A stretch of DNA of 64,000 nucleotides, from NCBI RefSeq assembly GCF_015732185.1, contig NZ_WIQM01000016.1, positions 310,001-374,000 of the forward strand, written 5' to 3'. Shown one piece after another: positions 1 to 49,645 of the stretch. The DNA comes from Pectinatus haikarae (GTDB taxonomy: Bacteria > Bacillota > Negativicutes > Selenomonadales > Selenomonadaceae). The notes under the pieces are model-generated. The model saw nothing but the letters and a program-made list of their open reading frames with translations. It was not told the origin of the DNA and did no database searches. Position numbers and translations under genes: made by a program. Each line of letters opens with the position of its first letter. Positions within the stretch are counted from its first letter, which is position 1.

Positions 1-275
1 GAACTCCATGGCAGCAGCCTTGGTTCCTGGAAAATTACACCTATGTCCTTTTCGGAAGGATGATCTATTTTTTTTCCGTTTAATTCTACGCTGCCTGATG
101 TGCTTTGTTCCAATCCGGCTATAACTTTTAACAATGTGCTTTTTCCGCAGCCGCTGGTCCCAACTATACTGATAATCTGTCCGTCGCCAATAGAAAAATT
201 TATATCATGCAAAACTTCGATTTTTCTGCCGTTAATAATGAAAAATTTTTGCACATTTTTTACATTTATAGCCAT
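1..275 (-). CDS. Sulfonate/nitrate-type ABC transporter ATP-binding protein, 5' part only
   Basis: The gene runs off the left edge of the window; only the first 91 codons are present. They encode the start of an ABC ATPase of the SsuB/TauB type. The Walker A motif (GTSGCGKST) is visible near residues 39-47 and the Q-loop (IFQEPRLLPW) at the window edge. The ABC signature and Walker B lie outside. The ATG at 275 begins MAINVKNVQKFF. The gene follows the permease by 14 bases, so it is the last visible gene of the operon that starts with the NifH-like gene at 7103. Substrate is unknown; the neighbouring binding protein is of the sulfonate/taurine class. Confidence 0.85.
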   Translation of the reverse strand, partial: MAINVKNVQKFFIINGRKIEVLHDINFSIGDGQIISIVGTSGCGKSTLLKVIAGLEQSTSGSVELNGKKIDHPSEKDIGVIFQEPRLLPWS

Positions 276-289
276 AGATTTATCCTTTC

Positions 290-1078
290 TTAATCCTCCT
301 GATCCACCCAATACAATGTTTTTTTCTGTATTTTGATAACTAATATATCTATGATCAGCCCAATTATCGCGATCGAAATAATTCCCACGAATAATGTCCC
401 AGGCTGTGCCAGCTCACGTCCGTATGATATCAAATATCCCACTCCGGCCGAAGCAGCGATCATTTCGGCTGCAACCACGCAGGTCCATGCGCCGCTTATC
501 CCCAAACGCAGTCCGGTAAATATCGCCGGAACGGCCGAAGGTAAAATAATTTTGCATAACATTATTTTTCTCGTCTTGCCGAAGGCTTTTGCTAATTCCA
601 GAAGTTTCGGATCCGCACTGCGTATTCCCTGCATTGTATTGAGCAGTACGGGCCAAAATGCGCCTATTACAATAACTCCTATTTTTGATGCCTCACCTAT
701 TCCCAGCCACAATATAAAAAAGGGAATACAGGCGATAGCCGGAATCGGTCTCAATATGCCTATTAAAGGGTCAACCATTTTGCCGAAGGTTTTAAATAAT
801 ACCGCCAGGCTGCCAAGCACAAGACCAAGCATGCTCCCTATAATATATCCATAAATTACTCTTCCCAGACTTGCTGTAACATGTTTAAAATAGCTGCCTT
901 TCTCCACCATTTGATCAAACGAAACGGTAATAGTTTCAGGGCTGGCAAATATCGATGGTTTTATAAGACCGCGATCACTTGCAATCTGCCATAAAATTAT
1001 TATAAGCAGGGGCAGCACTAAGGCTAAAAATAAATTTTTAAATAACGCTTTTACCCGAAAAATATTGTGGACTGCCAT
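290..1078 (-). CDS. ABC transporter permease, SsuC/TauC type
   Basis: A 262-residue inner-membrane permease of the binding-protein-dependent family used for sulfonates, taurine and nitrate. Six or so hydrophobic segments are visible. The cytoplasmic EAA loop is present near residues 155-185 (ELAKAFGKTRK, then LPSAVPAIFTGLRLG), as is the family's typical end EMIAASAGVGYLI. The start is well supported by AGGGGGAAAGC before the ATG at 1078. It sits between the lipoprotein binding protein and the ATPase, completing one importer. That importer is encoded in the same operon as the degenerate nitrogenase-like proteins and a radical SAM protein, which suggests it imports their substrate or a product precursor (inference). 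Confidence 0.88.
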   Translation of the reverse strand: MAVHNIFRVKALFKNLFLALVLPLLIIILWQIASDRGLIKPSIFASPETITVSFDQMVEKGSYFKHVTASLGRVIYGYIIGSMLGLVLGSLAVLFKTFGKMVDPLIGILRPIPAIACIPFFILWLGIGEASKIGVIVIGAFWPVLLNTMQGIRSADPKLLELAKAFGKTRKIMLCKIILPSAVPAIFTGLRLGISGAWTCVVAAEMIAASAGVGYLISYGRELAQPGTLFVGIISIAIIGLIIDILVIKIQKKTLYWVDQED

Positions 1079-1116: not shown

Positions 1117-2115
1117 TTATTGAATGCCTGCTTTTTGCAAAATTGAGGTATCAATATATTTGGCAATATCAACATTTTTTTTCAGCAGACCATATTTATA
1201 AGAGTCCTTTGCACCTTTATCAAGAGCATCTATTTTATCCTGAGTAAGTGTCAAATTCAAATCTCCTACATCTAATAATATTTTTAATCCCGGAACAGTT
1301 GCTTCTGTAGCTTCATGAGTAATTTCTATTGCCTTGTCAGGATTTGCCTTCGACCACTCTGCGGCTTTCTGCAGTGCTTTCAGCAGTTTGGCCGTTGCTT
1401 CCGGATTATCTTTGATAAATTGGTTTCTTGCCAATATTGGCGACACAAATAATTTTATACCTGTACCTCTTTGCAGAACGGATACACCGTTTCCTGTCTC
1501 TGCCGCTTGTGAAAGGTTTGGTTCCCATATAACATCAGCATCAATATCACCTGATACAAGACTTGAAACTCCATCTGACGGGCCAAGATTTACAATTTCG
1601 ACATCTTTTTCGGTCAGCCCCCCTTTAGCCAGCAGCAGATATAAAAAAGGCTGAGCGTTACTGCCAAAAGGAACTGCTATTTTTTTCCCTTTTAGATCAG
1701 ACAGCTGATGAATATGGGCGGCATCTCTGACAGCAATTCCCTGATTGTCGCTTGAAGCACTCGCCGAAGCTATGATCTTTATGTCAAGTCCGTTGGCAAT
1801 ACCTGAATAAACCGGCATATCGCCCATAAAACCGACATCCAGATTATCAGATGTCATTCCTTCAATGATCGGTGGCCCATAATTGAATGTGGAAATTTCC
1901 ACATCAAGTCCCTCATCCTTAAAATAGCCTAGTTTTTCCGCCACATAAACCTGAAAATATGTTGGCTGTGATGCCAGACGTATTTTTACGTTACTGTCTT
2001 TCGCCGCTGATTTTTCTCCGTCCTCCTGCGCTGAACTGCCGCAGCCGGCAAAATAAAGCATTGATAAAAATATTCCTAATATAGCTGCGGTTTTACGTAT
2101 TGCGGTAAATTTCAT
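1117..2115 (-). CDS. ABC transporter substrate-binding lipoprotein, SsuA/TauA-like
   Basis: A 332-residue extracytoplasmic binding protein. The start at 2115 (MKFTAIRKTAA) is chosen over an in-frame ATG at 2133 because GAAGGGAAAGAG lies just before it. The signal peptide ends in a lipobox with Cys25 (YFAGC), so it should be a lipoprotein. The mature part has the family pattern: IRLASQP, GYFKDEGLDVEI, VGFMGDMPV, and DADVIWEPNLSQ in the second lobe. This family binds alkanesulfonates, taurine, nitrate and related small ligands; the ligand cannot be read from sequence. The protein resembles the binding protein of the isethionate operon (14489-15493), including GFM[GA]DMP and VIWEP. Confidence 0.88.
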   Translation of the reverse strand: MKFTAIRKTAAILGIFLSMLYFAGCGSSAQEDGEKSAAKDSNVKIRLASQPTYFQVYVAEKLGYFKDEGLDVEISTFNYGPPIIEGMTSDNLDVGFMGDMPVYSGIANGLDIKIIASASASSDNQGIAVRDAAHIHQLSDLKGKKIAVPFGSNAQPFLYLLLAKGGLTEKDVEIVNLGPSDGVSSLVSGDIDADVIWEPNLSQAAETGNGVSVLQRGTGIKLFVSPILARNQFIKDNPEATAKLLKALQKAAEWSKANPDKAIEITHEATEATVPGLKILLDVGDLNLTLTQDKIDALDKGAKDSYKYGLLKKNVDIAKYIDTSILQKAGIQ

Positions 2116-2162
2116 GGCACTCTTTCCCTTCATTCAACTTAACTTATAATATCCGCTGAATT

Positions 2163-3380
2163 TTAATCAGCCGCACGGTAATACCGGGGATTGACATCAA
2201 TATTTTCATACAGTCGAAACAAGTCATACGGCACCGTATCGGCATTGGCGTTGGCATTGCGTATTTTCTCCCAGCTTATTCCGTATTTTCTATACATAGC
2301 TGCGGTTCTCTCAAAAACATCCCAGTGCCATTCTTCCGTCGGTGTTCTGTGTCCCTCAAGCGGTGACCCCACATTTACATACCACTGACTTGCACAGACG
2401 ACTATGCCGTGTGAAATCAAATATTCTATACCTTCAAGCAGCGATTCTTTCGGCTCAATGCCCGAGACCACTGTGGACCGGACATTATACCGGCCAAATA
2501 CCTGAACCTCATAATCAAGTGCATTGAGCCAGTTTTTTCTGCCGCCGCATAATTGAGCCTTACCGGGGCAGATAACATCAAATATTTTTTCATTCCATAT
2601 TTCAAGATTTGTCGCCATCGTACGAAAACCTGCCTCTTTGTATTTTTCAAATACCGACAGATCCTCCGGTGCGCCCACACAGGCTGTCCCGTTAAAATCT
2701 TCAAGCCCTGTGGCTTCCTGAATAGCTTCCGCCACATCAATATAATATTCTACTTCTCTTCTCTCGGGAATAAATCCGCCGCTTATTGTCACGTGATCAA
2801 AACCCTGTTTATAGCCGACCGCAATCGTTTCACCGACCTGCTGCGGAGTTTTCCATTTTATATCCTGCGACTGTGAATAAATTTCCTTTGTTGCATTAAT
2901 ATTGCAGAACAGGCAGTCCATTCCTTTGTCTTTCAGCGAGCATTCATTGCTGTACGATACAAACATGCCGCCATAACCATAATCTGCCGCGACCGTGCGC
3001 ATTGCTGTCCCGTCTGACGTTTTGCGGCCGTAGTATTCGGGTCTCTTAGTGAATTCAATATTTTCTATGACCAGTTTCTTCCTGTCATATATATTATAGA
3101 TTCCATCCTCATATTTCAATTTCAGCGGACTGTCTATATTCCAGCGTATCTGCACTCTGTATTTTCCCAGCGGTGTCAAAAAGCACGCAGGAAATTCAAT
3201 ATTGCTGTGCGCATGCCGATCATGGGTAAAAAGAACATTTACCTGCTCGATATATTTGCCGCCGATGTCCAAATGTCTGAAAACCTCAGGTGCAAATGCT
3301 ATACCTTCAACCAAAATACGATTTTTTAATTTAATTTCATCTAACAATTTATGTTTTTCTTCATCGGAATAATGACTCAT
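2163..3380 (-). CDS. Radical SAM protein with spaced CX8CX2C cluster motif (copy 1)
   Basis: A 405-residue protein starting at the ATG at 3380, preceded by GGAGGTTAGAA; the open frame continues further upstream but without an equally good site. The likely [4Fe-4S]/SAM motif is C147-x8-C156-x2-C159 (NECSLKDKGMDCLFCN), wider than the usual CX3CX2C. It is followed by VTISGGFIPERREVEYY, which looks like the SAM-binding GGE-type strand. Other conserved pieces shared with the second copy at 8044 are FNGTACVGAPEDLSV, CPGK and the R-x-PTxEW block near the C-terminus. I do not recognise a named family. It lies directly after the NifK-like gene and before the importer, so it probably acts with the degenerate nitrogenase-like set. 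Confidence 0.75.
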   Translation of the reverse strand: MSHYSDEEKHKLLDEIKLKNRILVEGIAFAPEVFRHLDIGGKYIEQVNVLFTHDRHAHSNIEFPACFLTPLGKYRVQIRWNIDSPLKLKYEDGIYNIYDRKKLVIENIEFTKRPEYYGRKTSDGTAMRTVAADYGYGGMFVSYSNECSLKDKGMDCLFCNINATKEIYSQSQDIKWKTPQQVGETIAVGYKQGFDHVTISGGFIPERREVEYYIDVAEAIQEATGLEDFNGTACVGAPEDLSVFEKYKEAGFRTMATNLEIWNEKIFDVICPGKAQLCGGRKNWLNALDYEVQVFGRYNVRSTVVSGIEPKESLLEGIEYLISHGIVVCASQWYVNVGSPLEGHRTPTEEWHWDVFERTAAMYRKYGISWEKIRNANANADTVPYDLFRLYENIDVNPRYYRAAD

Positions 3381-3530: not shown

Positions 3531-4811
3531 TCAAATGCCGCGTCCGATGCGGCTGATTTTTTCAATCAGCGCTATTGCGCCGGCGTAACCTATATCAACA
3601 CCGCTGACAGCCAGCTCCCTGTTCTGCGGGTTGCCTATGACAAATAATTCTGCATTAAGCCTGGCCGCCGCACCTGCCTCCAATTCTGAACCAAAAATTA
3701 TCTCATTATCCGGGCCAAGTTTTTCTTCTATTCTTTCCGTATCATCACTGTACACTATATCAGAGATAATTTTCTCCAGCGACTTCACAGGCTGCTGTTC
3801 TTGTGAATCCCCCTCATAATCTGTGATGACAGCTGTTTTTATCTGCATGCCGAGATACTTTTTGAGGAACTCCCCGTAGCGTATAACCTTGCTTTCTTCG
3901 CCGATAACAGATATTTTGCGGCGAAAATCATAGGAATAATAATATTCGGCAAACTGCCGGATTACATAGTCAAATTTTTTCTTTTCGCTGTACAGAAAAT
4001 TGTCAACTACATTTTTACTGATGCCAAGCTGTTCACCGACAATTTCCACAAAATTATCGGTATCAGGTCCAAGGCCCGGATTTTCTATGAAAACATATGG
4101 CGTACCATAGGTTGATCTGAGGTTTTCAGCGGCTTTCACTCCCCATTTCGAAACTACAACATTAAGTGCGGCAGCCGGTACAGACTGCCATGACTGCCAA
4201 TCCTCTCCATCACCAAAAAGTCTGTTCGTCTTCACTCCCAACGATCCCATTATTCTCTGGATCTCCCTCAGATTTCCCTGCCAGTACAGATCCTGCTGCG
4301 GTATGATGCCAAATATATTTACGGATTTAGTTTCCCTTTCCTGTTTCGGCGCTTTACCCGCAATCTGATCCAGCAGAACAGCCACGACTTCTTCATAACC
4401 CGTTCGTGCATGTCCGCGGAATCCCGGTGCTTTATAATATGCGGCCGCATACCCTTGATCCGTTATTTCCTGCGTCATTGCTACAACATCATCACTTATC
4501 ATTTCTGACTCGACACCGGAAAGCACCACATAAAGCTGGCCCTCAATGACCCTCACTGTATTTTTAATTTGCTCGCGCAGCCGGGAACCGCCGCCGAAAA
4601 CAATTTGTTTTTCATACATGTTGGTCGACGGCACACTATAGCCGTTTATTGACCCCACGATACCATTACCGGATTTATTTGCGGCAAAGGATTGAATCCC
4701 CAGTCCCGCAGTTCCGTGAATAATAGGCACGACTGCTTCGACAGCTTCCAATGTAGAAAGGGCTCCCTGAAGATTGCAGCCATATCTTGTCTTGCCAATC
4801 TCTGCTGTCAT
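3531..4811 (-). CDS. NifK-like nitrogenase component 1 protein lacking two P-cluster cysteines (K-A)
   Basis: A 426-residue protein of the nitrogenase component 1 family. It begins MTAEIGKTRYGCNLQGA, matching the N-terminus of the other K-like proteins here. The first P-cluster cysteine (C12) is kept. The second is replaced in HGTAGLG (Leu37 where K1 has GPGC) and the third in VLSGVESEMISDD (Val100 where K1 has LSGC). The FGGGSRLRE and NIFGIIPQQD blocks of the family are intact. The ATG overlaps the TAA of the upstream D-like gene (TAATG) behind GGAGGTGA, so the two are translationally coupled. An intact long frame with good signals argues against a pseudogene. It cannot hold a normal P-cluster; its role is unknown. 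Confidence 0.8.
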   Translation of the reverse strand: MTAEIGKTRYGCNLQGALSTLEAVEAVVPIIHGTAGLGIQSFAANKSGNGIVGSINGYSVPSTNMYEKQIVFGGGSRLREQIKNTVRVIEGQLYVVLSGVESEMISDDVVAMTQEITDQGYAAAYYKAPGFRGHARTGYEEVVAVLLDQIAGKAPKQERETKSVNIFGIIPQQDLYWQGNLREIQRIMGSLGVKTNRLFGDGEDWQSWQSVPAAALNVVVSKWGVKAAENLRSTYGTPYVFIENPGLGPDTDNFVEIVGEQLGISKNVVDNFLYSEKKKFDYVIRQFAEYYYSYDFRRKISVIGEESKVIRYGEFLKKYLGMQIKTAVITDYEGDSQEQQPVKSLEKIISDIVYSDDTERIEEKLGPDNEIIFGSELEAGAAARLNAELFVIGNPQNRELAVSGVDIGYAGAIALIEKISRIGRGI

Positions 4812-6205
4812 TATTTCACCTCCAGCTTTACATACCAGTCCGGACTTTTTTTCAGCCAGCTTGTCTTATAGGGCAGACTGTCATTTTTATATAAATAATT
4901 ACCGAATTCATTTGCTGTCTGTGCCTGCCGCAAACGTTCTATAAGCTCTGCCGCTCCCTTATATCCATATAGAGTCATCTGGCTCACCGATATGGGGATT
5001 ATTCCCAAAACTGCCGTCCAAGCCGCAGATCCGTCTGTTCCTATATAAAAATCAGGTTTAATTTTTCCTAAAATATTGGCCAGTTCAAAGGGTTGACCGC
5101 CGCCGATTTTGATAAAAAGATCATCCGGCAAAATCTCCAGTGCATCTTTATTCAGAGAATCTATATACGGTGCCGAAATTCCGCTGATTTCAAAACCGAT
5201 TCCTCGCAGAAACAATGCCAGTTCGGCTGCTGGACGAATAGGCAGCGCGATAAATACTTTTTTTCCGGCAAACGGTTTATTTTTCAGATATTCAGCAAAA
5301 AATCTCTCTTCTTCCTCAATAACAGCATGTGCTCTATCCGCCGACTTAAAAGTATCTCCCAGCGCCGAAAGCCAGGCAGCCGTCCCTTCTATTCCTATGG
5401 GAACTCTGCTTATAATGCTTTTTACCCCGCTTTTTTCCTGCAGTCCGGACAGCAGCACCTCTGCTTCATCCGAATTAACAGCTATTGCGGCCTCTGCCCT
5501 TCCTGCTTTTGTTATATCGTCCAGGCAGGAAAATTGCGGTATTATATTGCATTTTATTTCCAGCCTGCCAGTCAATCGTTCCAATTCCCCGAGATTTTTT
5601 CTGCTTTCCGTAATGCTGATAATATCTACAATATTTATTTTTTCGCCGTATTCCGCCAAAATATATTTAGCCAAAGCATGCAGGACAATATCGATTCCAT
5701 TTATTTCGGCTTTGCTTTTAAAGCCGTCAGTATATATAGATATTATTTTAACCGGCAGTTCCTCCTGCATTTCAAGAATAACAGTGCTGATATCATCATT
5801 ATTAATGGCAACGACGGAAGTCCCTAAAATAAATATTGCCTTCGGCTGATGCTTTTCATATGCCCGACGCACTGTATCACGCAATTTTTCGTCACTGCCC
5901 AGAATAGTATCACGCTCATCAAGATTGGTCGAATACCATATCGGCTGTTCCTGACCGTGTATTAACGATGTTTCCAGGATTGCCGTGCCTACGACTCCAT
6001 GCACAATGACAACCGTATCTCCTATTTCTGACAGGAGCCGCAAAGCTTCGTAAACTTCATCCTTTTTATCCTGTGAGAAAGTGCGTATTCTCTGCTGAAT
6101 CTCCTGATCTGCTGTTACAGCCTGCAGTTCTTTTTTGCTTCCCTGATAAGCAGTGACCGCATTTGTACGCTTTTCTCTGGTCAGAATTTTTCTTTCTTCC
6201 AGCAT
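4811..6205 (-). CDS. NifD-like nitrogenase component 1 protein lacking all metal ligands (D-A)
   Basis: A 464-residue protein starting at the ATG at 6205 behind AAAGGAG; a longer frame to 6250 would run further into the NifH-like gene. Family landmarks are recognisable: VVIVHGVVGTAI, NLDERDTILGSDEKLR, IFILGTSVVAINNDDI. Compared with the D-like proteins at 33376-49642, the first P-cluster Cys is absent, the second is Thr74 and the third is Ser130. The region that should hold the cofactor Cys (AAIAVNSDEAEVLLSG) has none. Only two cysteines remain, near residues 219 and 227, at unrelated places. It should pair with K-A and interact with H-A, but neither a P-cluster nor a FeMo-co-type cofactor can be bound in the usual way. 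Confidence 0.78.
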   Translation of the reverse strand: MLEERKILTREKRTNAVTAYQGSKKELQAVTADQEIQQRIRTFSQDKKDEVYEALRLLSEIGDTVVIVHGVVGTAILETSLIHGQEQPIWYSTNLDERDTILGSDEKLRDTVRRAYEKHQPKAIFILGTSVVAINNDDISTVILEMQEELPVKIISIYTDGFKSKAEINGIDIVLHALAKYILAEYGEKINIVDIISITESRKNLGELERLTGRLEIKCNIIPQFSCLDDITKAGRAEAAIAVNSDEAEVLLSGLQEKSGVKSIISRVPIGIEGTAAWLSALGDTFKSADRAHAVIEEEERFFAEYLKNKPFAGKKVFIALPIRPAAELALFLRGIGFEISGISAPYIDSLNKDALEILPDDLFIKIGGGQPFELANILGKIKPDFYIGTDGSAAWTAVLGIIPISVSQMTLYGYKGAAELIERLRQAQTANEFGNYLYKNDSLPYKTSWLKKSPDWYVKLEVK

Positions 6206-6227
6206 TGTCAGCCGCTCCTTTCCATTG

Positions 6228-7103
6228 TCAGATATTCGCCGACTCGGCAACTATACCCGTCTCGTAATCAAAAATACGATCGCCCCATATCTTAGCCCAG
6301 TCTCTCAATTCGGAAACACTCAAGGGAGCGGGTATAGTCAGATCATCATTTTGTGCTATATACCTTGCCAGCCGTCTGTATATATCTGCATGTTTGTCAT
6401 GAGGATTGGCCTCGATCACTGTTTTTCCGTACAATTCACTTTGAGATACGACTAATGAGCGGGGAATATATTCGACAGTTTTTGTACCTGTTCGATTGGT
6501 AAAATCATCCAGCAGCATCTTTGAATATCCTGCCGATAAACCGTTGCCTATTATGCCGCCAAGCCTCGCCCCTCCCGCAGGAGCATATTTGCTGATCGCT
6601 TTAAATAAATTATTAGCTGCATATACAGCCATAAAGTCTGAAGAACTTACCACATAAGCCCGATCCGTTATTCCGTCTCTTATCGGCACCGCAAAACCGC
6701 CGCAGACAACATCACCCAAAACATCATAAAGTACGTAATCAGGCTTATACTCTGCAAAAAGTTTCAATTCCTGCAGCAACGATACCGCCGCGTTGATGCC
6801 GCGCCCCGCGCAGCCGACGCCCGGCACCGGACCTCCCGATTCTATGCAGAGCACTCCCCCGTAGCCTTTAGCCGATATATCAGCTAAATGTACTTTTTTC
6901 CCCGAACGCATACTGTCAAGTACTGTCGGCAGATATGCATTGCCCCGCAGCGTATTCGTGGAATCACTTTTGGGATCGCAGCCGATTTGAATTACTTTAT
7001 ATCCTGCTTCAGCCAATGCCGCGCTGATGTTTGATGTAGTAGTAGATTTTCCTATTCCGCCTTTTCCATATATTGCTATATGCCTGCCAAATTTTTCACC
7101 CAT
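6228..7103 (-). CDS. NifH-like reductase (H-A)
   Basis: A 291-residue P-loop iron protein of the NifH/BchL/CfbC superfamily. It has the P-loop GKGGIGKS (13-20), the switch motif GCDPKSDST (41-49), the two cysteines that bridge the dimer's [4Fe-4S] cluster (C98 in GVGCAGRG and C134 in DVVCGGF) and the [16 protein letters not shown] block. It should therefore be a normal ATP-driven electron donor. The start is supported by AGAGGTAAATAAG. It leads the operon H-A, D-A, K-A, radical SAM, importer. An intact reductase beside partners without ligands is the striking point. It differs clearly from H-B (25201), for example KSDSTNTLRG against [10 protein letters not shown]. Confidence 0.92.
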   Translation of the reverse strand: MGEKFGRHIAIYGKGGIGKSTTTSNISAALAEAGYKVIQIGCDPKSDSTNTLRGNAYLPTVLDSMRSGKKVHLADISAKGYGGVLCIESGGPVPGVGCAGRGINAAVSLLQELKLFAEYKPDYVLYDVLGDVVCGGFAVPIRDGITDRAYVVSSSDFMAVYAANNLFKAISKYAPAGGARLGGIIGNGLSAGYSKMLLDDFTNRTGTKTVEYIPRSLVVSQSELYGKTVIEANPHDKHADIYRRLARYIAQNDDLTIPAPLSVSELRDWAKIWGDRIFDYETGIVAESANI

Positions 7104-7268: not shown

Positions 7269-7940
7269 TCAAAGATTCGATACATTTCTCTCTTTCAACG
7301 AATTCACTCTGTAAAGATCATCCCATGACGGTATTTCCAATGCATTGTTTTTATCCATCCTGATCAAACCTTTATCCTGAAATCGTCCTAATATCTCTGT
7401 GACGGTCTGGCGGCATGCCCCGATCATATTAGCCATTTCCTGGTGAGTAATCCGATAATCTATATAGTATTTATCTTCCTTCCTCTTTCCCGCAAGATGG
7501 CACAGCAGACTGGCCACTTTTGCTTCTGTATTGGCTGCCAGCAAATCTTCCAGTCTGTATTCATAATTTCTTACATATGAACAAAAGATCATGATCAGCT
7601 TAATAGAAATATTTATATTTTTTTCAAGGATTTTAATAAACTCATCACGTGATATCCGCCACAATACGCATTTTTCCATAGTTTTAGCAAATACTCCGCG
7701 GTTTTCCCTTAATAAAACCGCCGGCAATCCTATTATTTCACCGCTTTTGCAGATCGAAACAATAATTTCTTTGCCTGTAACGGTATTATGGTAATGTTTA
7801 ATATGTCCTTTTCTAATGTAATAAATATAATCTGCCGGGCTGTCTTCATTAAAAATAATTTCATGGGAGGATAATTGCAAAATACAAGAATTCGCTTTCA
7901 ATAGAGCCAGTTCTTCAAGTGTCCAATTTATTTCCTGCAT
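7269..7940 (-). CDS. CRP/FNR-family transcriptional regulator
   Basis: A 223-residue protein with an N-terminal cyclic-nucleotide-binding-type beta-roll (about 20-105), a dimerisation helix (about 108-140) and a C-terminal winged helix (about 141-205). The ATG at 7940 is chosen over the TTG just before it because of GGGAGTGG. The recognition helix reads GACRQTVTEILGRF. Aligned to E. coli CRP (GCSRETVGRILKML), the first Arg is kept, Glu181 becomes Gln and Arg185 becomes Glu. Six scattered cysteines (19, 64, 91, 120, 147, 176) do not form the N-terminal FNR cluster, so it is not a classical FNR. It is the likely activator of the three TGTCG-N6-CGACA promoters in this window. The effector is unknown. 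Confidence 0.88.
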   Translation of the reverse strand: MQEINWTLEELALLKANSCILQLSSHEIIFNEDSPADYIYYIRKGHIKHYHNTVTGKEIIVSICKSGEIIGLPAVLLRENRGVFAKTMEKCVLWRISRDEFIKILEKNINISIKLIMIFCSYVRNYEYRLEDLLAANTEAKVASLLCHLAGKRKEDKYYIDYRITHQEMANMIGACRQTVTEILGRFQDKGLIRMDKNNALEIPSWDDLYRVNSLKERNVSNL

Positions 7941-7955
7941 CAATTACCACTCCCT

Positions 7956-8043: not shown

Positions 8044-9255
8044 TCAGACATATATCCGGTAATCGGCAATATTCTCCAACGTGTCCCCGTCCAGATCATA
8101 CAAATAATCAAAAAACCGGCCTTCATCATTCGTACTATTGTAGAATTGTTCATGCGTTATGCCGTTGCGCACGAGAATTTTATAGCTTCTGTGCATAAGA
8201 TCTATAAACCACTCAGTAGTTGGTGCTCTATGTTCTGCCAGAGCAGAGCCTGGTTTTGGCATCCACATCTGCGGTACTGCAACTACGCCGAATGAAGATA
8301 ATTCGTCCACTCCTTCCAGCAAAGTATCCTTCGTTTCAAGCCCGGCCACAAAATAGGATCTGACATTGCCTTTTCCGAACACTTCTACCTCATGACGCAG
8401 TGTATTGACCCAGTTATCATACCCGCCGCACATAGCATCCTTGCCCGGACAAATATATTTGAACAGATTTTTATCCCATATTTCCATATTCGTCGCGATC
8501 CTGCTGTACCCCGCTTCTTTATATCGTTCAATAACTGATAAATCCTGCGGCGCACCTATACAGGCCGTTCCGCCGAAATCCTGCATGCCTGTGTAGTCCT
8601 GTATTGTTTCGGCTACATCAATATAATAATCAACTTCCCTGCGTTCGGGAATAAAACCGCCCGTGACAGTCAGATGTGTACATCCTTCATTATACGCGGC
8701 TCCAACTGTTTCAGCTATCTCACCAGCATTTTTCCACTCAATATTCTGTTTTTCGGCATATTTGGCTTTAGTCTCGTTAATATTGCAAAATCGGCAATCC
8801 ATATTTTTTTCCAGCAATGCACATTCATTGCTGTAAGCGATACTTATCTTTGACGAACCGACATACTGGGCTATAGTACCCATAAATTTACCATTGGTGG
8901 TTATTTTATTATAATATTTTGGTTTATGCTCAAACTTTATCTCAAATAAATATTCTTTTGCTTCTCTAAGATAAAATTTTTCTTCCTCTTTAACAATATT
9001 GAAGCGTGATGCCGGATCGAAAGCAAATGCAAACCTATATCCGTTCGGTGAACGAAAAGCTTGTGGCAGACTGTCAGCATAGCTTATATGATTATTAAAA
9101 AAACAGGCATGGATTTGCTCCAGATATTCATTTTTAAAATCAAGATTGTGGAATAATGAAGGATCTGCATTTATTCCCTCGTTAAAAACGCCTGCTCTTA
9201 TTTCCAATTCTTTCAACAGTTCCTTTTCTGATTGATTATCCCTTTTTGCGGTCAT
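8044..9255 (-). CDS. Radical SAM protein with CX8CX2C motif (copy 2)
   Basis: A 403-residue paralogue of the protein at 2163-3380. The ATG at 9255 follows GGGGAGTGAGAAG and is preferred to the upstream in-frame start at 9291. The putative cluster motif NECALLEKNMDCRFCN has the same C-x8-C-x2-C spacing, followed by LTVTGGFIPERREVDYY. FGGTACIGAPQDLSV, CPGKDAMCGG and APTTEW match copy 1 closely. It is the first gene behind a CRP-type promoter (9447-9490) with a 184-base structured leader and stands just upstream of the regulator gene. Function is not recognised; duplication of this enzyme within the island suggests two related substrates or targets. Confidence 0.75.
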   Translation of the reverse strand: MTAKRDNQSEKELLKELEIRAGVFNEGINADPSLFHNLDFKNEYLEQIHACFFNNHISYADSLPQAFRSPNGYRFAFAFDPASRFNIVKEEEKFYLREAKEYLFEIKFEHKPKYYNKITTNGKFMGTIAQYVGSSKISIAYSNECALLEKNMDCRFCNINETKAKYAEKQNIEWKNAGEIAETVGAAYNEGCTHLTVTGGFIPERREVDYYIDVAETIQDYTGMQDFGGTACIGAPQDLSVIERYKEAGYSRIATNMEIWDKNLFKYICPGKDAMCGGYDNWVNTLRHEVEVFGKGNVRSYFVAGLETKDTLLEGVDELSSFGVVAVPQMWMPKPGSALAEHRAPTTEWFIDLMHRSYKILVRNGITHEQFYNSTNDEGRFFDYLYDLDGDTLENIADYRIYV

Positions 9256-9361
9256 CTTCTCACTCCCCAATATTATAAATATAAGCGTCAATAATTTCTT
9301 CTAAAACAGCTTATCTTTTTTTCAATTCGTGCCGGACCTTCTGATATTTATGTCTGATAAT

Positions 9362-9504: not shown

Positions 9505-10347
9505 TTATTCATCCATCATATAGCGGCGCCCCAACGCATTATATTTAGCGACACCAAAACGATGGTAGGGAAGCTGTTCATATACTGTTTCCGGTTTATT
9601 CGCCAAATAATTCTTTATGGCAAGCAGATCATCCGGCGAATCATTGAATCCCGGTATTACGGGCGTTCTGGCATATTTAGGCAGTTTGGGAAAATCACGA
9701 CAGAGATTATCAAAATTCTGCAGTATTTTCCGATTTGTTTTTCCAGTATAGGCAATATGTTGTTGTTCGTCAAGTGATTTTATATCAAAAAGAATTGCAT
9801 CCAAATATTTGGCAGCCTGCTTCAAGATAGGATAATCAGCATATCCGCAGGTTTCTATAGCCGTCGTCAGGCGCCGCTTTTTAGCCTGCCTGAGCAGTTG
9901 GATCAAAAATTCACCCTGCATCAGCGGCTCTCCGCCGCTCACAGTCAACCCGCCGTTCCCATGCCGATAGAAAATACTATCCTTCTCAACTATATCAAGG
10001 ACTTCTTTGATCGAATACTGATGCCCTTCTGCTTTATATGCTTTTGCCGGACATTCATGAACACATTTCATGCAGCTGCTGCATTTATCTCTTTGGATAA
10101 CAGCTTTATGCAAATCAGAAAATTCTATTGCACCGGCATCACATATCTTTTCACATTCGTTACATATTTTTTTGCCTAGGCATTTATTTGCATCATAAGA
10201 AATTTCCGGCTTGGTTTTTTGAGATTCGGGATTACAACACCAACGGCAGCGAAGCGGACATCCTTTCATAAAAACAATCGTGCGGATGCCAGGACCATCA
10301 TGCAGCGAATATTGCTGGATATTGAATATCATTCCTTTTTTGTCCAT
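9505..10347 (-). CDS. islB: Isethionate sulfite-lyase activating enzyme
   Basis: A 280-residue glycyl-radical-enzyme activase. It carries the radical SAM motif C30-x3-C34-x2-C37 (KGCPLRCRWCC) after the family's HDGPGIRT, then two inserted ferredoxin-like [4Fe-4S] Cys groups (about residues 56-105, including CSSCMKCVHECP) and the SGGEPL SAM-binding motif. It cleaves S-adenosylmethionine to place the glycyl radical on its partner. It begins three bases after the stop of islA, so it is co-transcribed, and the partner assignment follows from that. The start has only a weak ribosome binding site, consistent with translational coupling. Confidence 0.9.
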   Translation of the reverse strand: MDKKGMIFNIQQYSLHDGPGIRTIVFMKGCPLRCRWCCNPESQKTKPEISYDANKCLGKKICNECEKICDAGAIEFSDLHKAVIQRDKCSSCMKCVHECPAKAYKAEGHQYSIKEVLDIVEKDSIFYRHGNGGLTVSGGEPLMQGEFLIQLLRQAKKRRLTTAIETCGYADYPILKQAAKYLDAILFDIKSLDEQQHIAYTGKTNRKILQNFDNLCRDFPKLPKYARTPVIPGFNDSPDDLLAIKNYLANKPETVYEQLPYHRFGVAKYNALGRRYMMDE

Positions 10348-10350
10348 AGA

Positions 10351-12843
10351 TTATATAGCTTCATTCTGCGTTCTGGCTATAATGTCATTTTGCAAATCAA
10401 TTGACAGATCTGTAAAATAAGCACTGTAGCCGGCAATACGCACAAGCAGATTACGATAATTTTCGGGGTTTTTCTGTGCCGCAATCAACGTTTCCTGGTT
10501 TATCACGTTGAATTGTATATGCCAAAGCTTTAAGTCGCGCCATGCTTCTATAAAATCAACCAGTTTTTTTGTTCCCTTTTCTCCGCGTACACAGGCAGGA
10601 CTTAGTTTGACATTGAGCAGCCTTGCTGCACGTTCATGATATTGATAATTTTTCGTAGCAAAATTTGACAGCAGCACTGCTGTAGGACCATATGTGTCTG
10701 CCCCCTGAGATGCACTTGAACCATCTGATAATGGTGTCCATGCCAGTCTGCCGTTAGGTGTGGCACCAACCACTTTGCCGAAAGGAACATGCGAGGTAAA
10801 CGGAACATAGCGCAAATCAAGATTCACTCCCAGCTCCGCCGAATATTTTCTGGTAAAGAGCAGCGCCTCTTTATCAAGCCGTTTGCCCAATTCATCAGCA
10901 TAGGAATCATTATTTCCGTATTTCGGCGCATTTAAAAGCCTTTGCCGCAAAATATCATATCCTGCAAAATTCTTTGTCATAGCTTCCTTGATCTGAGCCA
11001 GTGTCGCTTTTCGATCCTCAAATACGATTTTTTTAATTGCTGCCAGTGAGTCAATGACTGTGGCATAACCTATAAATTCAAAATATCCCAAGTCTATGCC
11101 TCCGTCGATATGAGGCTGATGAATATCAACCAAACTACTGCGGCATAATTTGTGAAGCGCCGATCCCAGCGGACTGGCAAAATGATTTGCTCTCAGGCGG
11201 ATAATTTCATGCTGCTGAATAAAAGCATGCTTGAGAAAATTTTTTTGCTGCTGCAAATATGCCGCGAAAAATTCGTCAAAAGAAATAAAGGTATCTATTT
11301 CCCCCGTTTCTATGCCGATCAGCTCACTGCCGTATTTTGCCATACGTCCGTTATAGATAGTCATTTCCAATGCCGCAGCAAAATTTATATAAGCATTCGG
11401 ACTTGTATAGGTATCACGATTGGGCATGCGGCATTCAGCGCAGCCTGACACACTGTAGTCATAGGCTTCGGCAAAATCGGCACCTTTGGCAAGCAGCAAT
11501 GGTATAACTTCCTCATCATTGATAAGCTTTGGAAAACCAGATCCCTCTTTTATCGTTTCGGCAACTTCAGCCAGATACTGCTGTGTGCTGCGCGTATGAA
11601 CGCGGGCTGCCAGGTCAGGATAATTTAAAGGAAATTCTCGTTTCGATTTCAATAAAACATATGTGAGATCATTGACCGCATCCTGACCATCAGGTGTCTG
11701 TCCTCCCACGGTAACCGCTTCCCAGTGAGCATAGCCTTCATTGAATGCGCCGCCTGCACTTGATATATATAAATCTATATATTGAGACATCGCTACCCAT
11801 TCACAATCAAAAATCTCCTGCACATCATTATCGGTAATGAGACCTTCCTTTATATCTTTTTCATAAAAAGGATATAAATACTGATCCATGCGTCCGTTGG
11901 AGATAACTGTCCCTGTCTTTTGTTCCACACGGGAAAACAGCTGAGTAAACCATTGAGACTGAACTGCCTCGCGAAAATTACGGGCAGGATATTCCGGTAC
12001 CCGTCTGCATATCTCAGCAATATTTTTCAGCTCTGTTCTGCGCGAAAGATCATTTTCCTGCAAAGCTTTTTCATCTGCCAGCTCCGCATGCCGGCGAGCC
12101 CATAGAGTTATCGCGTCACAGACAATTATGACCGCTTCGATAAATGGTTTTTTTTCTGTCTGATCAATGGGACTGAAGGGATCAAGCTGCCTCAGTTTTT
12201 CTCCCATTTCCGTGCGTATACCAAAAAAGCCCTGCTGCAAAACTATCTCATAATCATGAACCCATTGTATGGAAGACCGAAAAGATGCCGTCTCATTGAC
12301 AATAAATCTTGACGAAAAATCTTTGTCATTATTATAAGTAAGTGCCGCTGTTTTCGGTGTAAGAGCTTTTATTAAATCTTCATGAAATGTTTTACCCTTC
12401 CAATACGGTGCTATCTCCTCAGCTATGAGTCTGGCATCATTGCCGTCAATATCAAAAGGAGATGTTTCTCTGTCAGGCAGCTGTCCTATAGCATCTCCCA
12501 TAATATCGCCGTCAAGTTCCGGATATAATATGCCGTAACGTCCGCTTCGTCCTATTCTGCCTGCAATAAGCTGGTCATCATCAATATAGACCGTCGCTTG
12601 TTCGGCATAATACTTCAACGCTTTTGCCCAGCGCAAAATCATGGGCTGTCCTTCTGTTTCTTTAAACGACCGTGTAAAATACAAACCTCTTTCAATATCA
12701 ATGACAGGCTTTTGTCCCTGTACACGCTTCAATAAAGCAAATGCGCGGTTTTTCGGCCCGTGTAAGCCGGCAATATTTTTATTTCCTTTTATTTCAGAAA
12801 GAATACGTTCTTCCTGTCCGGAAAAAATTTTTTCTTCTGTCAT
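10351..12843 (-). CDS. islA: Isethionate sulfite-lyase (glycyl radical enzyme)
   Basis: An 830-residue glycyl radical enzyme that should cleave isethionate to acetaldehyde and sulfite. The diagnostic residues fall exactly at the published IslA numbers as I recall them: thiyl-radical Cys468 and Glu470 (SGCAECR), the sulfonate-binding Arg189 and Gln193 (FRSSIQW) and Arg678 (LDLRYVPF), and Trp374. The glycyl radical loop is RIAGYSAYF with Gly805. Together these separate it from pyruvate formate-lyase and choline TMA-lyase. GGAGGATAAA precedes the ATG. It is followed by islB and preceded by an ABC importer whose best substrate guess is isethionate. Taurine-degrading genes are absent, so isethionate itself seems to be taken up, probably as a sulfur source. 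Confidence 0.92.
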   Translation of the reverse strand: MTEEKIFSGQEERILSEIKGNKNIAGLHGPKNRAFALLKRVQGQKPVIDIERGLYFTRSFKETEGQPMILRWAKALKYYAEQATVYIDDDQLIAGRIGRSGRYGILYPELDGDIMGDAIGQLPDRETSPFDIDGNDARLIAEEIAPYWKGKTFHEDLIKALTPKTAALTYNNDKDFSSRFIVNETASFRSSIQWVHDYEIVLQQGFFGIRTEMGEKLRQLDPFSPIDQTEKKPFIEAVIIVCDAITLWARRHAELADEKALQENDLSRRTELKNIAEICRRVPEYPARNFREAVQSQWFTQLFSRVEQKTGTVISNGRMDQYLYPFYEKDIKEGLITDNDVQEIFDCEWVAMSQYIDLYISSAGGAFNEGYAHWEAVTVGGQTPDGQDAVNDLTYVLLKSKREFPLNYPDLAARVHTRSTQQYLAEVAETIKEGSGFPKLINDEEVIPLLLAKGADFAEAYDYSVSGCAECRMPNRDTYTSPNAYINFAAALEMTIYNGRMAKYGSELIGIETGEIDTFISFDEFFAAYLQQQKNFLKHAFIQQHEIIRLRANHFASPLGSALHKLCRSSLVDIHQPHIDGGIDLGYFEFIGYATVIDSLAAIKKIVFEDRKATLAQIKEAMTKNFAGYDILRQRLLNAPKYGNNDSYADELGKRLDKEALLFTRKYSAELGVNLDLRYVPFTSHVPFGKVVGATPNGRLAWTPLSDGSSASQGADTYGPTAVLLSNFATKNYQYHERAARLLNVKLSPACVRGEKGTKKLVDFIEAWRDLKLWHIQFNVINQETLIAAQKNPENYRNLLVRIAGYSAYFTDLSIDLQNDIIARTQNEAI

Positions 12844-12862: not shown

Positions 12863-13633
12863 TCATATAGTGTAATAAAAGGTCTGTAATTTTTCTTCAA
12901 AAAATTCTTTGTATATCTTATCTTTTTGTCTATGAAATTCAGGACTTACCCTGCTTCGCGGTATAGATTGTTCGATATTATAACTTTGCTTGATCCTGCC
13001 CGGCTGCGTATCCATGACAATAACACGCTGCCCTAAATATACAGCCTCCTCGATATCATGCGTTACTATGATCATGGTAATTTGTTCCATCTCCCAAAGG
13101 CGGAGCATCTCTTCCTGCAAATGCATTTTAGTTATTGCATCCAATGCACCGAAAGGCTCGTCAAGGAGCAATATCTTGGGCTGGTTCGACAGGGCTCTGG
13201 CAATCGACACCCGCTGTGCCATTCCCCCTGAAAGTTGTTTTGGATAAGCTTTTCTGACGTCCTGCAACCCGACTATTTCAAGATTTTCCACTATGATCTT
13301 TTCAACATTTTCCGTTGATTCCGGCAGGCTGAATTTTATATTTTCTTCCACTGTCAGCCATGGCAGCAGACGATGATCCTGAAAAATAAACCCCCGCTCG
13401 CGGCCCGGGCCTTTAATGGGCCCGTTTTCAAAATAGACGCTGCCTTCATAATCTGTATCCAATCCTCCCATAATCCTCAAAAGCGTGCTTTTCCCACATC
13501 CGCTGGGCCCGATTATCGAAATAAATTCCCCGGGATTAATTGTCAGATTAACATTCTCCAGAACTTTTTTTGTCTGCTTGCCTGAAACAAACTGCTTACT
13601 TAATTTTTCTATTTGAATAATTGGATCTGCCAT
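12863..13633 (-). CDS. Isethionate-operon ABC transporter ATP-binding protein
   Basis: A 256-residue ABC ATPase of the SsuB/TauB group. Walker [11 protein letters not shown]-loop IFQDHRLLPW, signature LSGGMAQR, Walker B ILLLDEPFGALD and the switch histidine in VTHDIEEAV are all present. A TTG at 13642 is an alternative start; the ATG at 13633 (MADPIIQIEKL) is preferred. It lies between the permease (gap 10 bases) and islA (gap 19 bases), so it powers the importer of the isl operon. Confidence 0.88.
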   Translation of the reverse strand: MADPIIQIEKLSKQFVSGKQTKKVLENVNLTINPGEFISIIGPSGCGKSTLLRIMGGLDTDYEGSVYFENGPIKGPGRERGFIFQDHRLLPWLTVEENIKFSLPESTENVEKIIVENLEIVGLQDVRKAYPKQLSGGMAQRVSIARALSNQPKILLLDEPFGALDAITKMHLQEEMLRLWEMEQITMIIVTHDIEEAVYLGQRVIVMDTQPGRIKQSYNIEQSIPRSRVSPEFHRQKDKIYKEFFEEKLQTFYYTI

Positions 13634-13643
13634 ATATTTCAAC

Positions 13644-14420
13644 TCAATTCCATTTAATCATCACAGTTGACAACTTTTTCAATATATCATCCATAAATTT
13701 ACCGACAATTCCTATTATGATCATACCTAAAATAACCATGTCAGGTCTTGCAAGATCACGTCCGTCCATCAGCATATACCCAACGCCTCTTGTCGCTGCT
13801 ATCATTTCAGAAGCCACTACGCAGATCCACGCACTGCCCAGTCCCAGCCTGGTACCGGTCATTATAAATGGCAAAGCACCGGGTAAAACTACCTGCTTTA
13901 TCACTCTTTTCTTCGAAACTTCATATACGCGGGCGAGTTCAATATATTTTCTGTCAATATTTTTTATTCCGTCCAGTGTATTCAAAAAAACCGGAAAAAA
14001 TGCACCAATAAATATTATATATATTTTAGATGCCTCGCCGATACCGAACCATAAAATAGCCAGCGGGATCCAGGCAATCGGCGGAATGGGTTTCAAAACC
14101 TGAAGAATAAAATCAGTGATTATCTCAAATTTTCCTGACAGCCCGGCTGCCACCCCGACAGCCAATGCCGCGGCCAATGCCAAAAAGAATCCCTCAAGAA
14201 CACGCAGTATACTGATTATGATATTTCCGGCCAAGGTCCCGTCTGCGGTTAAGGTGACTGCCGTTTGAATGACTTTATCCGGTGACGGCAGTGTGTAATT
14301 ATGAATAATCCCCAATAAAGCCGCACCTTTCCATAAAAGCAGCACTAGGATGGGAAGTATCCAATATAAACTCAAATATTTAGCTGTCTGTATATATTTA
14401 CTGGCTGCCATTTCTTTCAT
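13644..14420 (-). CDS. Isethionate-operon ABC transporter permease
   Basis: A 258-residue SsuC/TauC-type permease with an N-terminal hydrophobic segment, the family block PIPPIAWIPLAILWFGIGE and the EAA loop (ELARVYEVSKKR ... LPGALPFIMTGTRLG), ending with EMIAATRGVGYML. It is the second gene of the isl operon, after the binding protein. The block resembles the permease at 290-1078 more than the permeases of the 26-33 kb importer, suggesting the two minus-strand importers are related. Confidence 0.88.
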   Translation of the reverse strand: MKEMAASKYIQTAKYLSLYWILPILVLLLWKGAALLGIIHNYTLPSPDKVIQTAVTLTADGTLAGNIIISILRVLEGFFLALAAALAVGVAAGLSGKFEIITDFILQVLKPIPPIAWIPLAILWFGIGEASKIYIIFIGAFFPVFLNTLDGIKNIDRKYIELARVYEVSKKRVIKQVVLPGALPFIMTGTRLGLGSAWICVVASEMIAATRGVGYMLMDGRDLARPDMVILGMIIIGIVGKFMDDILKKLSTVMIKWN

Positions 14421-14488
14421 TCGCGTCTCCTCTGTTCATTTGATTAAACGGACATATATACTGCCTCTCATCGAAACAATATATATGA

Positions 14489-15493
14489 TTACTTATCACC
14501 TATACCGGCCTCTTTTAAATATTCAAGATTAATAAAGCTGTCCATATCAATATCATTCTGAATCAGTTTCTGCTGAAGCAAATAGTCTTTTACTTTTTTT
14601 ATTTCATTTACATCTTCTGTTGTCAAAGCCTGATCATAATGAAGATTCTTGAAAGTATCTTCCAATATCAAAGGATCGACTTTCATGTCTTTTGCTATTA
14701 GTTCAGCCGCTTCCTTAGGATTGGATTTGATATAATCTGACGCCCGCTGACATGCTTTAATATATGCGGCTATGATCTGCGGGTTTTCCTCTGCATACTT
14801 TTTCACGGCATAAGTAACAAGATTACCGCGTTTTATTCCTGTTCCATCGGCTATTACCTTCGCCTTTCCTGACGCTACAAGCTGCGAGATAAACGGCTCC
14901 CAAATAACGGCAGCATCAATCTGACCGCTTTCCAGCGCTGCCGGTATATCTCCGGCCGGTATATTCACTGACTGTATATCATTAAATGTCAAGTTTTCCT
15001 TTTCCAGAAGGAGCGCCAGTAAATGCTGTGCATATGTACCTTTGCCATAAGCAACCTTTTTGCCTTTCAACTGCCCTGCCGAAACAATATCCGACCCTGG
15101 GCCTGCCAGAAGTGCCAACGCTTTTTCGCCATATGCAACATCAGCAATTATTTGTATATCCTGTCCTGACGATTTAGCTAAAATAGCGGGCATATCCGCC
15201 ATGAATCCTATATCATCATGCCCCGAAGCTACAGCTTCATTTACCAGAGGACCCGATTTAAAATCCGTCCATTCGTATGTAGCCCCCACTTTTTTTAATT
15301 CTTCATCGAGATAGCCTTTTTCTTTTGCTACATAAATCGATGCATATAACGGATAAGGCTGTGCCCCTATACGCAATACATTTGAACTGTTTGCTTTATC
15401 AGCTGATGACGATCCGCTGCCTTCCTCACTATTTAATCCGCAGCCGGCAACCAGCAAAGTGGCAAGTACAAATAATAAAATCACTTTCTTCAT
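14489..15493 (-). CDS. Isethionate-operon substrate-binding lipoprotein
   Basis: A 334-residue SsuA/TauA-like binding protein. The signal peptide ends in LLVAGC, with Cys18 as the lipidated residue. Mature motifs are LRIGAQPYPLYASIYVAKEKGYLDE (given in two parts: LRIGAQPYPLYA and IYVAKEKGYLDE), GFMADMPA and AAVIWEPFISQL. It is the first gene of the operon ending in islAB and lies 190 bases after the predicted promoter start at 15683. The likely ligand is isethionate, by context. This differs from the TRAP-type uptake usually linked to isethionate dissimilation. Confidence 0.88.
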   Translation of the reverse strand: MKKVILLFVLATLLVAGCGLNSEEGSGSSSADKANSSNVLRIGAQPYPLYASIYVAKEKGYLDEELKKVGATYEWTDFKSGPLVNEAVASGHDDIGFMADMPAILAKSSGQDIQIIADVAYGEKALALLAGPGSDIVSAGQLKGKKVAYGKGTYAQHLLALLLEKENLTFNDIQSVNIPAGDIPAALESGQIDAAVIWEPFISQLVASGKAKVIADGTGIKRGNLVTYAVKKYAEENPQIIAAYIKACQRASDYIKSNPKEAAELIAKDMKVDPLILEDTFKNLHYDQALTTEDVNEIKKVKDYLLQQKLIQNDIDMDSFINLEYLKEAGIGDK

Positions 15494-24243: not shown

Positions 24244-25110
24244 ATGAAAAAACTAAACAGCATACGCGAACTGCATCCGTGTTTCGGTGCCAAGAACAAC
24301 CGCGGCAGAATGCATTTGCCCGTTTGTCCCGGCTGTAATATTTTCTGCCGTTTCTGTGAACGCAGCATCAATAAAGACGAAGACAGACCGGGTGTTGCGG
24401 CAAAGGTGATCACACCGGAGGCAGCTTGCGAGTATGTGGAACGGGCTTTGAAATTTTGCCCGGATATCACAGTCGTAGGCATAGCCGGACCGGGCGATAC
24501 ACTGGCGACCGATAATGCGATAAAAACATTTAAGCTTATAGGGGAAAAATTTCCTGCCCTGCTAAAGTGCATGAGTACAAACGGTCTGCTGCTTAAAGAA
24601 AGACTACCGGATATTTTGGACGTAGGTATAGATACACTGACTGTCACCGTGAATGCCATAGATCCGTACATTGAGGCACAGCTTAACGACGGAATCATTT
24701 ATCACGGCAAAAGGATTATGGGTGAAGCCGGCGCGGAAATACTCATCAATAATCAGCTTGCCGGCATTCAGGCGGCAGCGGAAACAGGAATGACAATAAA
24801 GGTCAACACTGTTTTAGTCAATGAAATAAACAGATTTCATATAAAAGATATCGCCAAAGCCGTTTCTGAACGCGGTGCAGCGATCTATAACATCATACCG
24901 CTTATTCCCCAGCACAAGCTGAGAGACCTTTCAGTTCCCGGCTGTATCGATATAGAGACTGTCAGACATGAAGCCGGCAAATATATAGATGTATTCAGAC
25001 ATTGCCAGCACTGCCGGGCGGATGCTGTGGGTGTTCCCGGCAAAAATAATTTCAGCCGCCAGGTTTATCTCGGTGAGCTGCAGAGTCGCGAAACTTTTTC
25101 GCACGGGTGA
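24244..25110 (+). CDS. nifB: NifB cofactor maturase (radical SAM core only)
   Basis: A 288-residue NifB without the C-terminal NifX-like extension. It has the HPCF opening (Cys13), RMHLPVCPGC, the radical SAM motif C31-x3-C35-x2-C38 (CNIFCRFC), VGIAGPGDTLA, the CMSTNGL strand and the C-terminal RHCQHCRADAVG. NifB inserts the interstitial carbide and a sulfur to build the 8Fe-9S-C NifB cluster. Its presence shows that at least some D/K proteins here receive a nitrogenase-type cofactor. TTGAGGTGACC precedes the ATG. Confidence 0.93.
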   Translation: MKKLNSIRELHPCFGAKNNRGRMHLPVCPGCNIFCRFCERSINKDEDRPGVAAKVITPEAACEYVERALKFCPDITVVGIAGPGDTLATDNAIKTFKLIGEKFPALLKCMSTNGLLLKERLPDILDVGIDTLTVTVNAIDPYIEAQLNDGIIYHGKRIMGEAGAEILINNQLAGIQAAAETGMTIKVNTVLVNEINRFHIKDIAKAVSERGAAIYNIIPLIPQHKLRDLSVPGCIDIETVRHEAGKYIDVFRHCQHCRADAVGVPGKNNFSRQVYLGELQSRETFSHG

Positions 25111-29101: not shown

Positions 29102-29209
29102 CCGAATTATGAATTGACAAACCTGCCTAATGACAGAAAGCAGATGATATTCTGGCTGATTTTAAATAAGTAAAAACCATATTGATTAGCAGGAGAGGGG
29201 CTTGCGATA

Positions 29210-31160: not shown

Positions 31161-31182
31161 AAAAATTATGAGGAACAACGCG

Positions 31183-46767: not shown

Positions 46768-46791
46768 TTTCCACAATAGAGAGGTTTAAAT

Positions 46792-49642: not shown

Positions 49643-49645
49643 TGG

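Follow-up and report, generated by a model that had tools for sequence, protein, structure and literature searches.

Can an iron protein of the NifH family still serve partners that have lost most of their metal ligands? The question is raised by an operon on the minus strand of a stretch of 64,000 nucleotides from Pectinatus haikarae (contig NZ_WIQM01000016.1, positions 310,001 to 374,000), called the window here, in which all coordinates are given. The operon encodes a NifH-like protein (H-A), two partners of the nitrogenase component 1 type (D-A and K-A), a radical S-adenosylmethionine (SAM) protein and a sulfonate-type ATP-binding cassette (ABC) transporter (Table 1). Where the function of a nitrogenase-like enzyme is known, its H protein feeds a component of the DK type, and in the cases named this component holds a metal cluster (Morimoto 2024, PMC11423573). 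Just as a sequence-only reading of this DNA had stated, H-A has its P-loop, C98 and C134, D-A has T74 and S130, K-A has C12, L37 and V100, and the frames are intact, with D-A and K-A coupled by a TAATG overlap. We tentatively read the locus as a putative sulfonate-desulfonation operon, isrHDKB-ssuACB, descended from the isethionate reductase family IsrBHDK and held under selection, whose DK component has been altered so that it would lose the usual [4Fe-4S] cluster. A DK component that kept its constant residues and dropped its ligands would test whether the electron relay is essential. It would also help to settle whether IsrDK or IsrB cuts the sulfonate C-S bond, a point that PMC11423573 leaves open.

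The Isr family and the ligands lost from the window copy

Ligand loss must be measured against the correct family. Four clear relatives of D-A are found in 380 genomes of the class (36-39% identity, 290-330 bits; the next best match scores 194 bits), and around them lie genes for H, D, K, a Crp relative, an Ssu-type transporter and an IsrB-like radical SAM protein. An alignment of the five D proteins, used as query against about 85,000 species, found 89 relatives, of which 80 were kept; members were picked by having one of two peptide patterns, by which more aberrant members may be missed. The resulting D relatives at 80 loci (29-51% identity) come from Lachnospiraceae, Clostridium, spirochaetes, Azoarcus, Chlorobiaceae, Geobacter, Rhodopseudomonas, Paenibacillus and others. 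With the four loci of the class added and a duplicated record counted once, there are 83 distinct loci. Within the stretches fetched, 62 of them combine genes for H, D and K with an IsrB-like gene and a transporter gene of the Ssu/Tau type, and many of those with an incomplete set lie on short contigs.

This gene set matches that of IsrBHDK, the isethionate reductase of Rhodobacter capsulatus, in which isrB, isrH and isrDK are all required for anaerobic growth on isethionate (Morimoto 2024, PMC11423573). There IsrD conserves one cysteine, Cys74; the sites of the first and third P-cluster ligands are occupied by Arg and Pro/Ser. IsrK has Cys12, Cys37 and Cys99, the last of which is position 100 in K-A. 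These four cysteines, one in D and three in K, may hold a [4Fe-4S] cluster; the family as a whole has neither the cofactor ligands nor two of the six ligands of the P-cluster (PMC11423573). The relatives of the window operon show the same cysteine pattern and numbering. Position 13 of D is Arg in 79 of 85 rows, the window included, and position 130 is Pro in 80 and Ser in five, the window being among the five.

By cysteine pattern, numbering, gene set and distribution, H-A, D-A, K-A and the adjacent radical SAM gene are assigned to the IsrBHDK family, an assignment made through these features and not through direct comparison with the R. capsulatus sequences; the IsrB kind is assigned by neighbourhood and shared family. 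Like the R. capsulatus system, the window has four genes with a sulfonate ABC transporter, an IsrH with its P-loop and two cysteines, a radical SAM partner of the IsrB kind beside HDK, and an IsrD lacking the first and third ligands (R13, S130) and the iron-molybdenum cofactor (FeMoco) ligands. It differs at three of the conserved cysteines (PMC11423573), Cys74 of IsrD and the second and third of IsrK, which are replaced by T74, L37 and V100. Because these cysteines are missing and the substrate is only putative, the operon is classed on its sequence as a derivative of the Isr clade and is not named isethionate reductase.

The sequence-only reading had taken NifDK as its baseline. That baseline has to be exchanged, since IsrHDK lacks a cofactor cysteine and has four cluster cysteines where nitrogenase has six. 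Of the ligands listed as missing, those at D74, K37 and K100 are true losses; Ser130, the absent first ligand and the absent cofactor cysteine are normal for Isr, so that C74T in D and C37L and C100V in K constitute the real departure. A loss of six ligands is rejected, two never having been present in Isr, and so is a wholly unknown branch of the superfamily, the Isr family being already described. The same reading knew of no described member with this combination: the family is in fact described, and the full ligand-poor combination did not turn up in searches limited to open-licence PubMed Central (PMC) papers, passages of PMC4246453, PMC12552129 and PMC13067680 included. The Isr family is known, and its ligand-poor form, which rests on one genome, appears to be new.

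Compared with the relatives that could be read, the window copy alone lacks three of the four ligands. Of the 84 relatives aligned with the window, 83 have Cys at D74; the window has Thr there, and locus L152 has Ser, but the 5' part of its D is not homologous and cannot be judged at this position. Every one of the 83 relatives whose K frame can be read has Cys at K12, K37 and K100. L110 and L075 are one record entered twice, which leaves 82 distinct relatives for each count of 83 in 83. In L116 (Butyrivibrio fibrisolvens 16/4), a draft record, the isrK frame is broken and its three cysteines can still be read in two frames. The genome search that the sequence-only reading had proposed recovers the neighbourhood, and the substitutions at none of the other loci examined.

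A tree of D and K with the ligand columns masked places the window in a clade of six rows with L078, L079, L080, L085 and L132 (support 99 in the Shimodaira-Hasegawa-like approximate likelihood ratio test, SH-aLRT, by a quick method). The tree has 78 rows and no outgroup, and the purple bacteria are represented in it by Rhodovulum and Rhodopseudomonas rows, not by R. capsulatus. The five other rows of the clade all have the four cysteines, so that parsimony puts the loss on the window's own branch; on these sequences the loss is a derived one, inside a clade that keeps its cysteines. A search of the genus and family for a sister copy gave at best 32% identity outside the genome itself, and in a phylum sample the only hit at E 1e-60, one in 398, was the window's own genome. 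A second Isr D or K able to pair with H-A is rejected: among the 15 PF00148 matches of the genome (PF00148 being the nitrogenase component 1 domain), the best other match to D-A has 28% identity and 142 bits. The highest-scoring PF00148 genes, on contig C1 at 563-569 kb, are probably NifDK/NifEN.

Selection, decay and sequence error

Constant columns were defined as at least 97% constant in 79 other rows, with L110, L152, L116 (K frame broken), L141 (D split) and L125 (overlong frames) left out; the tree also left out L156 and L147. By this measure D-A has changed 2 of 35 columns (C74T, N194D) and K-A 3 of 38 (C37L, C100V, G106S), so that 68 of 73 positions are kept in the two together. Three of the four ligands are changed and 67 of the 69 non-ligand positions are kept. 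Other rows show up to six changes (L157, in D); in this alignment the number of changes in the window is ordinary, and which positions changed is what is special. The listed probability of 6e-4 is not an independent test, the finding having been picked for its missing cysteines, and for this reason weight is placed instead on the 67 kept positions. H-A has none of 149 constant columns changed (comparison of the 73 rows of 271-344 amino acids), and neither of the two IsrB-like proteins any of 43 (99 rows).

The codons at the three lost ligands, ACG, CTG and GTC, differ at 8-9 of 9 bases from the TGC/TGT of the five nearest relatives; each is two to three bases from a Cys codon, and none of the Thr, Leu and Val replacements is one step from Cys. 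When neutral drift was simulated in D and K, a change of 5% of bases gave a mean of 5.6 stops and no stop-free run in 200, and stop-free runs numbered 2 of 200 at 3% change and 53 of 200 at 1%. With open frames, 8-9 of 9 ligand-codon bases different, 67 of 69 D and K positions kept and H and B unchanged, decay appears unlikely, as the sequence-only reading had held, and we conclude from these comparisons that the proteins probably stayed under selection through the ligand loss. That reading had also equated local decay with a loss confined to this copy while close relatives retain the cysteines. The relatives do keep them and this copy alone has lost them, but local decay does not follow.

An early stage of decay, in which the operon has lost its function while its frames are still unbroken, nevertheless has to be weighed. 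It would fit a loss unique to the window copy among the relatives examined, a K somewhat more diverged than expected, a long end branch and the presence of other sulfur-acquisition genes in the genome. It fits poorly with ligand codons none of which lies one step from Cys, as drift of that extent would leave many stops, and with the constant positions kept in D and K, H (149 of 149) and IsrB (43 of 43); we regard it as improbable. An error of sequencing or assembly at the ligand codons has next to no likelihood. A single assembly is readable, but the error would have had to produce 8-9 base differences at three separate codons with no frameshift, in a contig of 856 kb from a genome listed as 99.57% complete and 0.32% contaminated. 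The simple sequencing error that the sequence-only reading had named as a danger is likewise disfavoured by the distance of each codon from its counterparts in the nearest relatives.

The cluster pocket and a possible mechanism

Both subunits are modelled with the nitrogenase-component fold. The D-A model (predicted local distance difference test, pLDDT, 89.3; predicted template modelling score, pTM, 0.90) has its best fold match in chain A of 9fmg, the methylthio-alkane reductase, and the K-A model (pLDDT 87.8, pTM 0.90) in chain B; among the less certain stretches are residues 71-90 in D and, in K, residues 1-10, 41-60, 101-110 and 331-340. D-H69 and K-H32 are retained, and no new Cys or His stands beside the lost ligands. 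Leu and Val at K37 and K100 cannot bind a metal, and their apolar character suggests a pocket that is packed shut and has not been refitted to take a different cube cluster. D-A has two cysteines in all, C219 and C227; in NifD the corresponding stretch belongs to a loop that borders the cofactor cavity.

The known systems differ in what their DK components hold. Methylthio-alkane reductase, MarBHDK (PDB 9fmg, 9d9u), is the best solved-structure match of D-A and K-A in sequence and fold, and it cleaves a C-S bond (PMC12552129), as is proposed for the window operon. MarDK has a P-cluster and an [Fe8S9C] cluster, the latter bound by the pair Cys270/His429 (PMC12552129), whereas a single one of the six P-cluster cysteines survives in D-A and K-A. 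NifHDK resembles the window in fold and in its H-DK layout; of its P-cluster ligands K-C12 alone is kept, and the sequence-only reading was right that H-A must act on something other than a normal P-cluster. In the dark-operative protochlorophyllide oxidoreductase (DPOR), BchLNB, a NifH-like ATPase feeds a DK-type component without FeMoco that has one [4Fe-4S] cluster, held in NB by three Cys and an Asp (PMC11423573); D-A and K-A keep one Cys, and the sequence similarity of this system to the window proteins is weak.

Under the reading preferred here, IsrH would still dock on DK and hydrolyse ATP. The electrons of its [4Fe-4S] cluster would bypass the DK relay and reach a different acceptor within the assembly, for which IsrB or a bound sulfonate would be the simplest candidates. 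The stronger proposition, that a cluster-free DK works, with docked IsrH driving electrons straight into IsrB or the sulfonate and the relay being dispensable in the superfamily, is doubtful. IsrB is hinted at as an acceptor since one IsrH often occurs with several IsrB-like genes. Counting genes over 200 bits and 300 amino acids, 34 of the 51 loci of at least 18 kb have one, nine have two, three have three, one has six and four have none; thus one IsrH accompanies two or more in 13 (for instance L094, L112 and L127). Six each are found in Chlorobiaceae L128 and in the shorter L146, where they are 66-88% identical among themselves. Most sets are 12-59% divergent, and the L096 pair, 95% identical, could stem from a recent duplication. 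Two such genes are present in the window's genome, along with a third, weaker match at 29% identity. The pattern points to HDK as a power unit shared by several IsrB proteins that differ in substrate, each often encoded close to a transporter. Sulfite released by the reaction could be used by two proteins of the genome with sulfite/nitrite reductase domains (three matches).

Several observations weigh against the preferred reading. Purified R. capsulatus IsrDK has Fe-S absorbance near 410 nm (PMC11423573), so that cluster loss should normally abolish activity. The loss is seen in one genome, with no second copy bearing it among the loci examined, and four other species of the genus have no ortholog (best matches 26-30% identity). 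The end branch of the window is long, 0.82 against a median of 0.13. K-A is slightly over-diverged, with 46 and 43% identity to L132 and L080 against 51% between these two. Rates are otherwise ordinary: the window and L132 are 83, 52, 46 and 74% identical in H, D, K and B, and L132 and L080 are 84, 47, 51 and 75% identical. Enrichment of other changes around the ligands is rejected (9 of 31 positions against 65 of 305, p 0.22), and there is therefore no sign of a broadly remodelled pocket.

Two further explanations concern the pocket and the role of DK. The pocket may hold a different cofactor on K-C12, such as an organic molecule, a mononuclear metal or a cluster whose ligands are exogenous or residues other than cysteine, with D-C219 and D-C227 possibly contributing. 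K-C12 has indeed been retained though its three partners are lost, the two histidines noted above persist, C219 and C227 have been gained at positions that are mostly other residues in the family, and the Asp ligand of the BchNB cluster is a precedent in the superfamily for ligation by a residue other than Cys (PMC11423573). Two of the three replacements are apolar, however, C219 and C227 are distant in sequence from the lost ligands, and nothing beside those ligands has become Cys or His, which makes such a cofactor rather unlikely. DK may otherwise have turned into a scaffold or regulator that has no catalytic part and is preserved because it contacts IsrH or IsrB, while the sulfonate is cleaved by other enzymes, for example the adjacent HpsGH glycyl-radical pair. 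The fold and the family-constant residues are kept and only the redox site is lost, as a scaffold would have it, and genes for a sulfopropanediol dehydratase (NF048011, 1500.7 bits, cut-off 1000) and its activator adjoin the operon. We consider this explanation unlikely: IsrH and IsrB are unchanged at constant positions, more than a scaffold would seem to need, and a search of open-licence PMC papers for nitrogenase pseudoenzymes gave no related case. Delivery of a cluster by the adjacent radical SAM enzyme, as the sequence-only reading had suggested, finds no support here, the gene being of the IsrB type, and IsrB resembles NifB solely in its radical SAM motif (PMC11423573). NifB-like delivery from this gene is rejected; the NifB-like protein of the window is encoded at 24244-25110, with another H gene.

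The operon and its neighbours

The start of D-A is the ATG at 6205, the best by ribosome-binding site as judged by eye, and that of the isrB-like gene is the ATG at 3380, also picked by eye. K-A contains a single cysteine, C12. The transporter ATPase gene crosses the edge of the window, and metK is next (582 bits, cut-off 309).

Table 1. Features of the isr-like operon and adjoining genes, with residues of interest; positions are those of the window except for metK, given by locus.
Feature	Position	Strand	Remarks
H-A, isrH-like	6228-7103	-	291 amino acids; NifH family; P-loop, C98 and C134 intact
D-A, isrD-like	4811-6205	-	464 amino acids; PF00148 match, 189.5 bits
D-A codon 74	5984-5986	-	ACG (Thr); Cys in 83/83 readable relatives
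D-A codon 130	5816-5818	-	TCC (Ser); Pro or Ser ordinary for the family
D-A C219 to C227	5525-5551	-	no further cysteines in D-A; family mostly without Cys at these sites
K-A, isrK-like	3531-4811	-	426 amino acids; PF00148 match, 184.3 bits
K-A codon 12	4776-4778	-	TGC; single ligand cysteine still present
K-A codon 37	4701-4703	-	CTG (Leu); Cys in the family
K-A codon 100	4512-4514	-	GTC (Val); Cys in the family
K-A codon 106	4494-4496	-	AGT (Ser); Gly in the family, VGDD motif right behind the lost ligand
isrB-like radical SAM gene	2163-3380	-	NF045502, 461 bits, cut-off 125; CX8CX2C intact
ssuA-like substrate-binding protein	1117-2133	-	TIGR01728, 206 bits, cut-off 163.5
ssuC-like permease	290-1078	-	best NCBIfam match NF008470 (SsuC), 161.5 bits, below cut-off 347
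Ssu/Tau/nitrate-type transporter ATPase, start	1-311	-	ssuB-like by position; below all listed cut-offs
Crp-family regulator	7269-7943	-	just upstream of H-A; L074-L077 likewise have a Crp relative close to isrHDK
Second isrB-like radical SAM gene	8044-9291	-	intact; 40-43% identical to the first
metK	L158 12191-13378; L076 6845-8050; L077 12154-13359		NCBIfam for L158 and L076; L077 by sequence likeness

The metK gene is oriented as the isr genes are: in the window's genome (L158) it lies downstream of the operon, and in L076 and L077 it follows isrK directly. Riboswitch control of the operon is rejected, as the window has no Rfam match at gathering thresholds. Counts of promoters and terminators are about the shuffle mean, and the only inverted repeats found are short ones. 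Elsewhere in the family, the broken isrK of L116 and the split isrD of L141, a Chlorobiaceae metagenome-assembled genome, are in draft records and may be real or assembly errors.

Beside the Isr operon, the region of 9505-12843 and 12863-15493 holds the HpsG sulfopropanediol dehydratase, an HpsH-like activator (407 bits, cut-off 430) and a second transporter set of the sulfonate/taurine type. A second nitrogenase-like region spans 24244-50986, with the NifB-like radical SAM protein, a NifH-like H-B and several D and K genes. It includes tandem D genes at 33376 and 34960, 85% identical and with one K, a Mar-like D (827 bits to 9fmg) with its K at 45253-48150, and a further DK pair at 48170-50986, whose D scores 434 bits to 9fmg. 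In the three D and three K proteins of this region that were aligned, the cysteines at 74/130 and 12/37/100 are kept. The same region contains an Ssu/Tau-type ABC permease (31168-32478) with a long His/Met-rich C-terminal tail past the permease domain, and two neighbouring genes for substrate-binding proteins (28067-30241) that are 87% identical.

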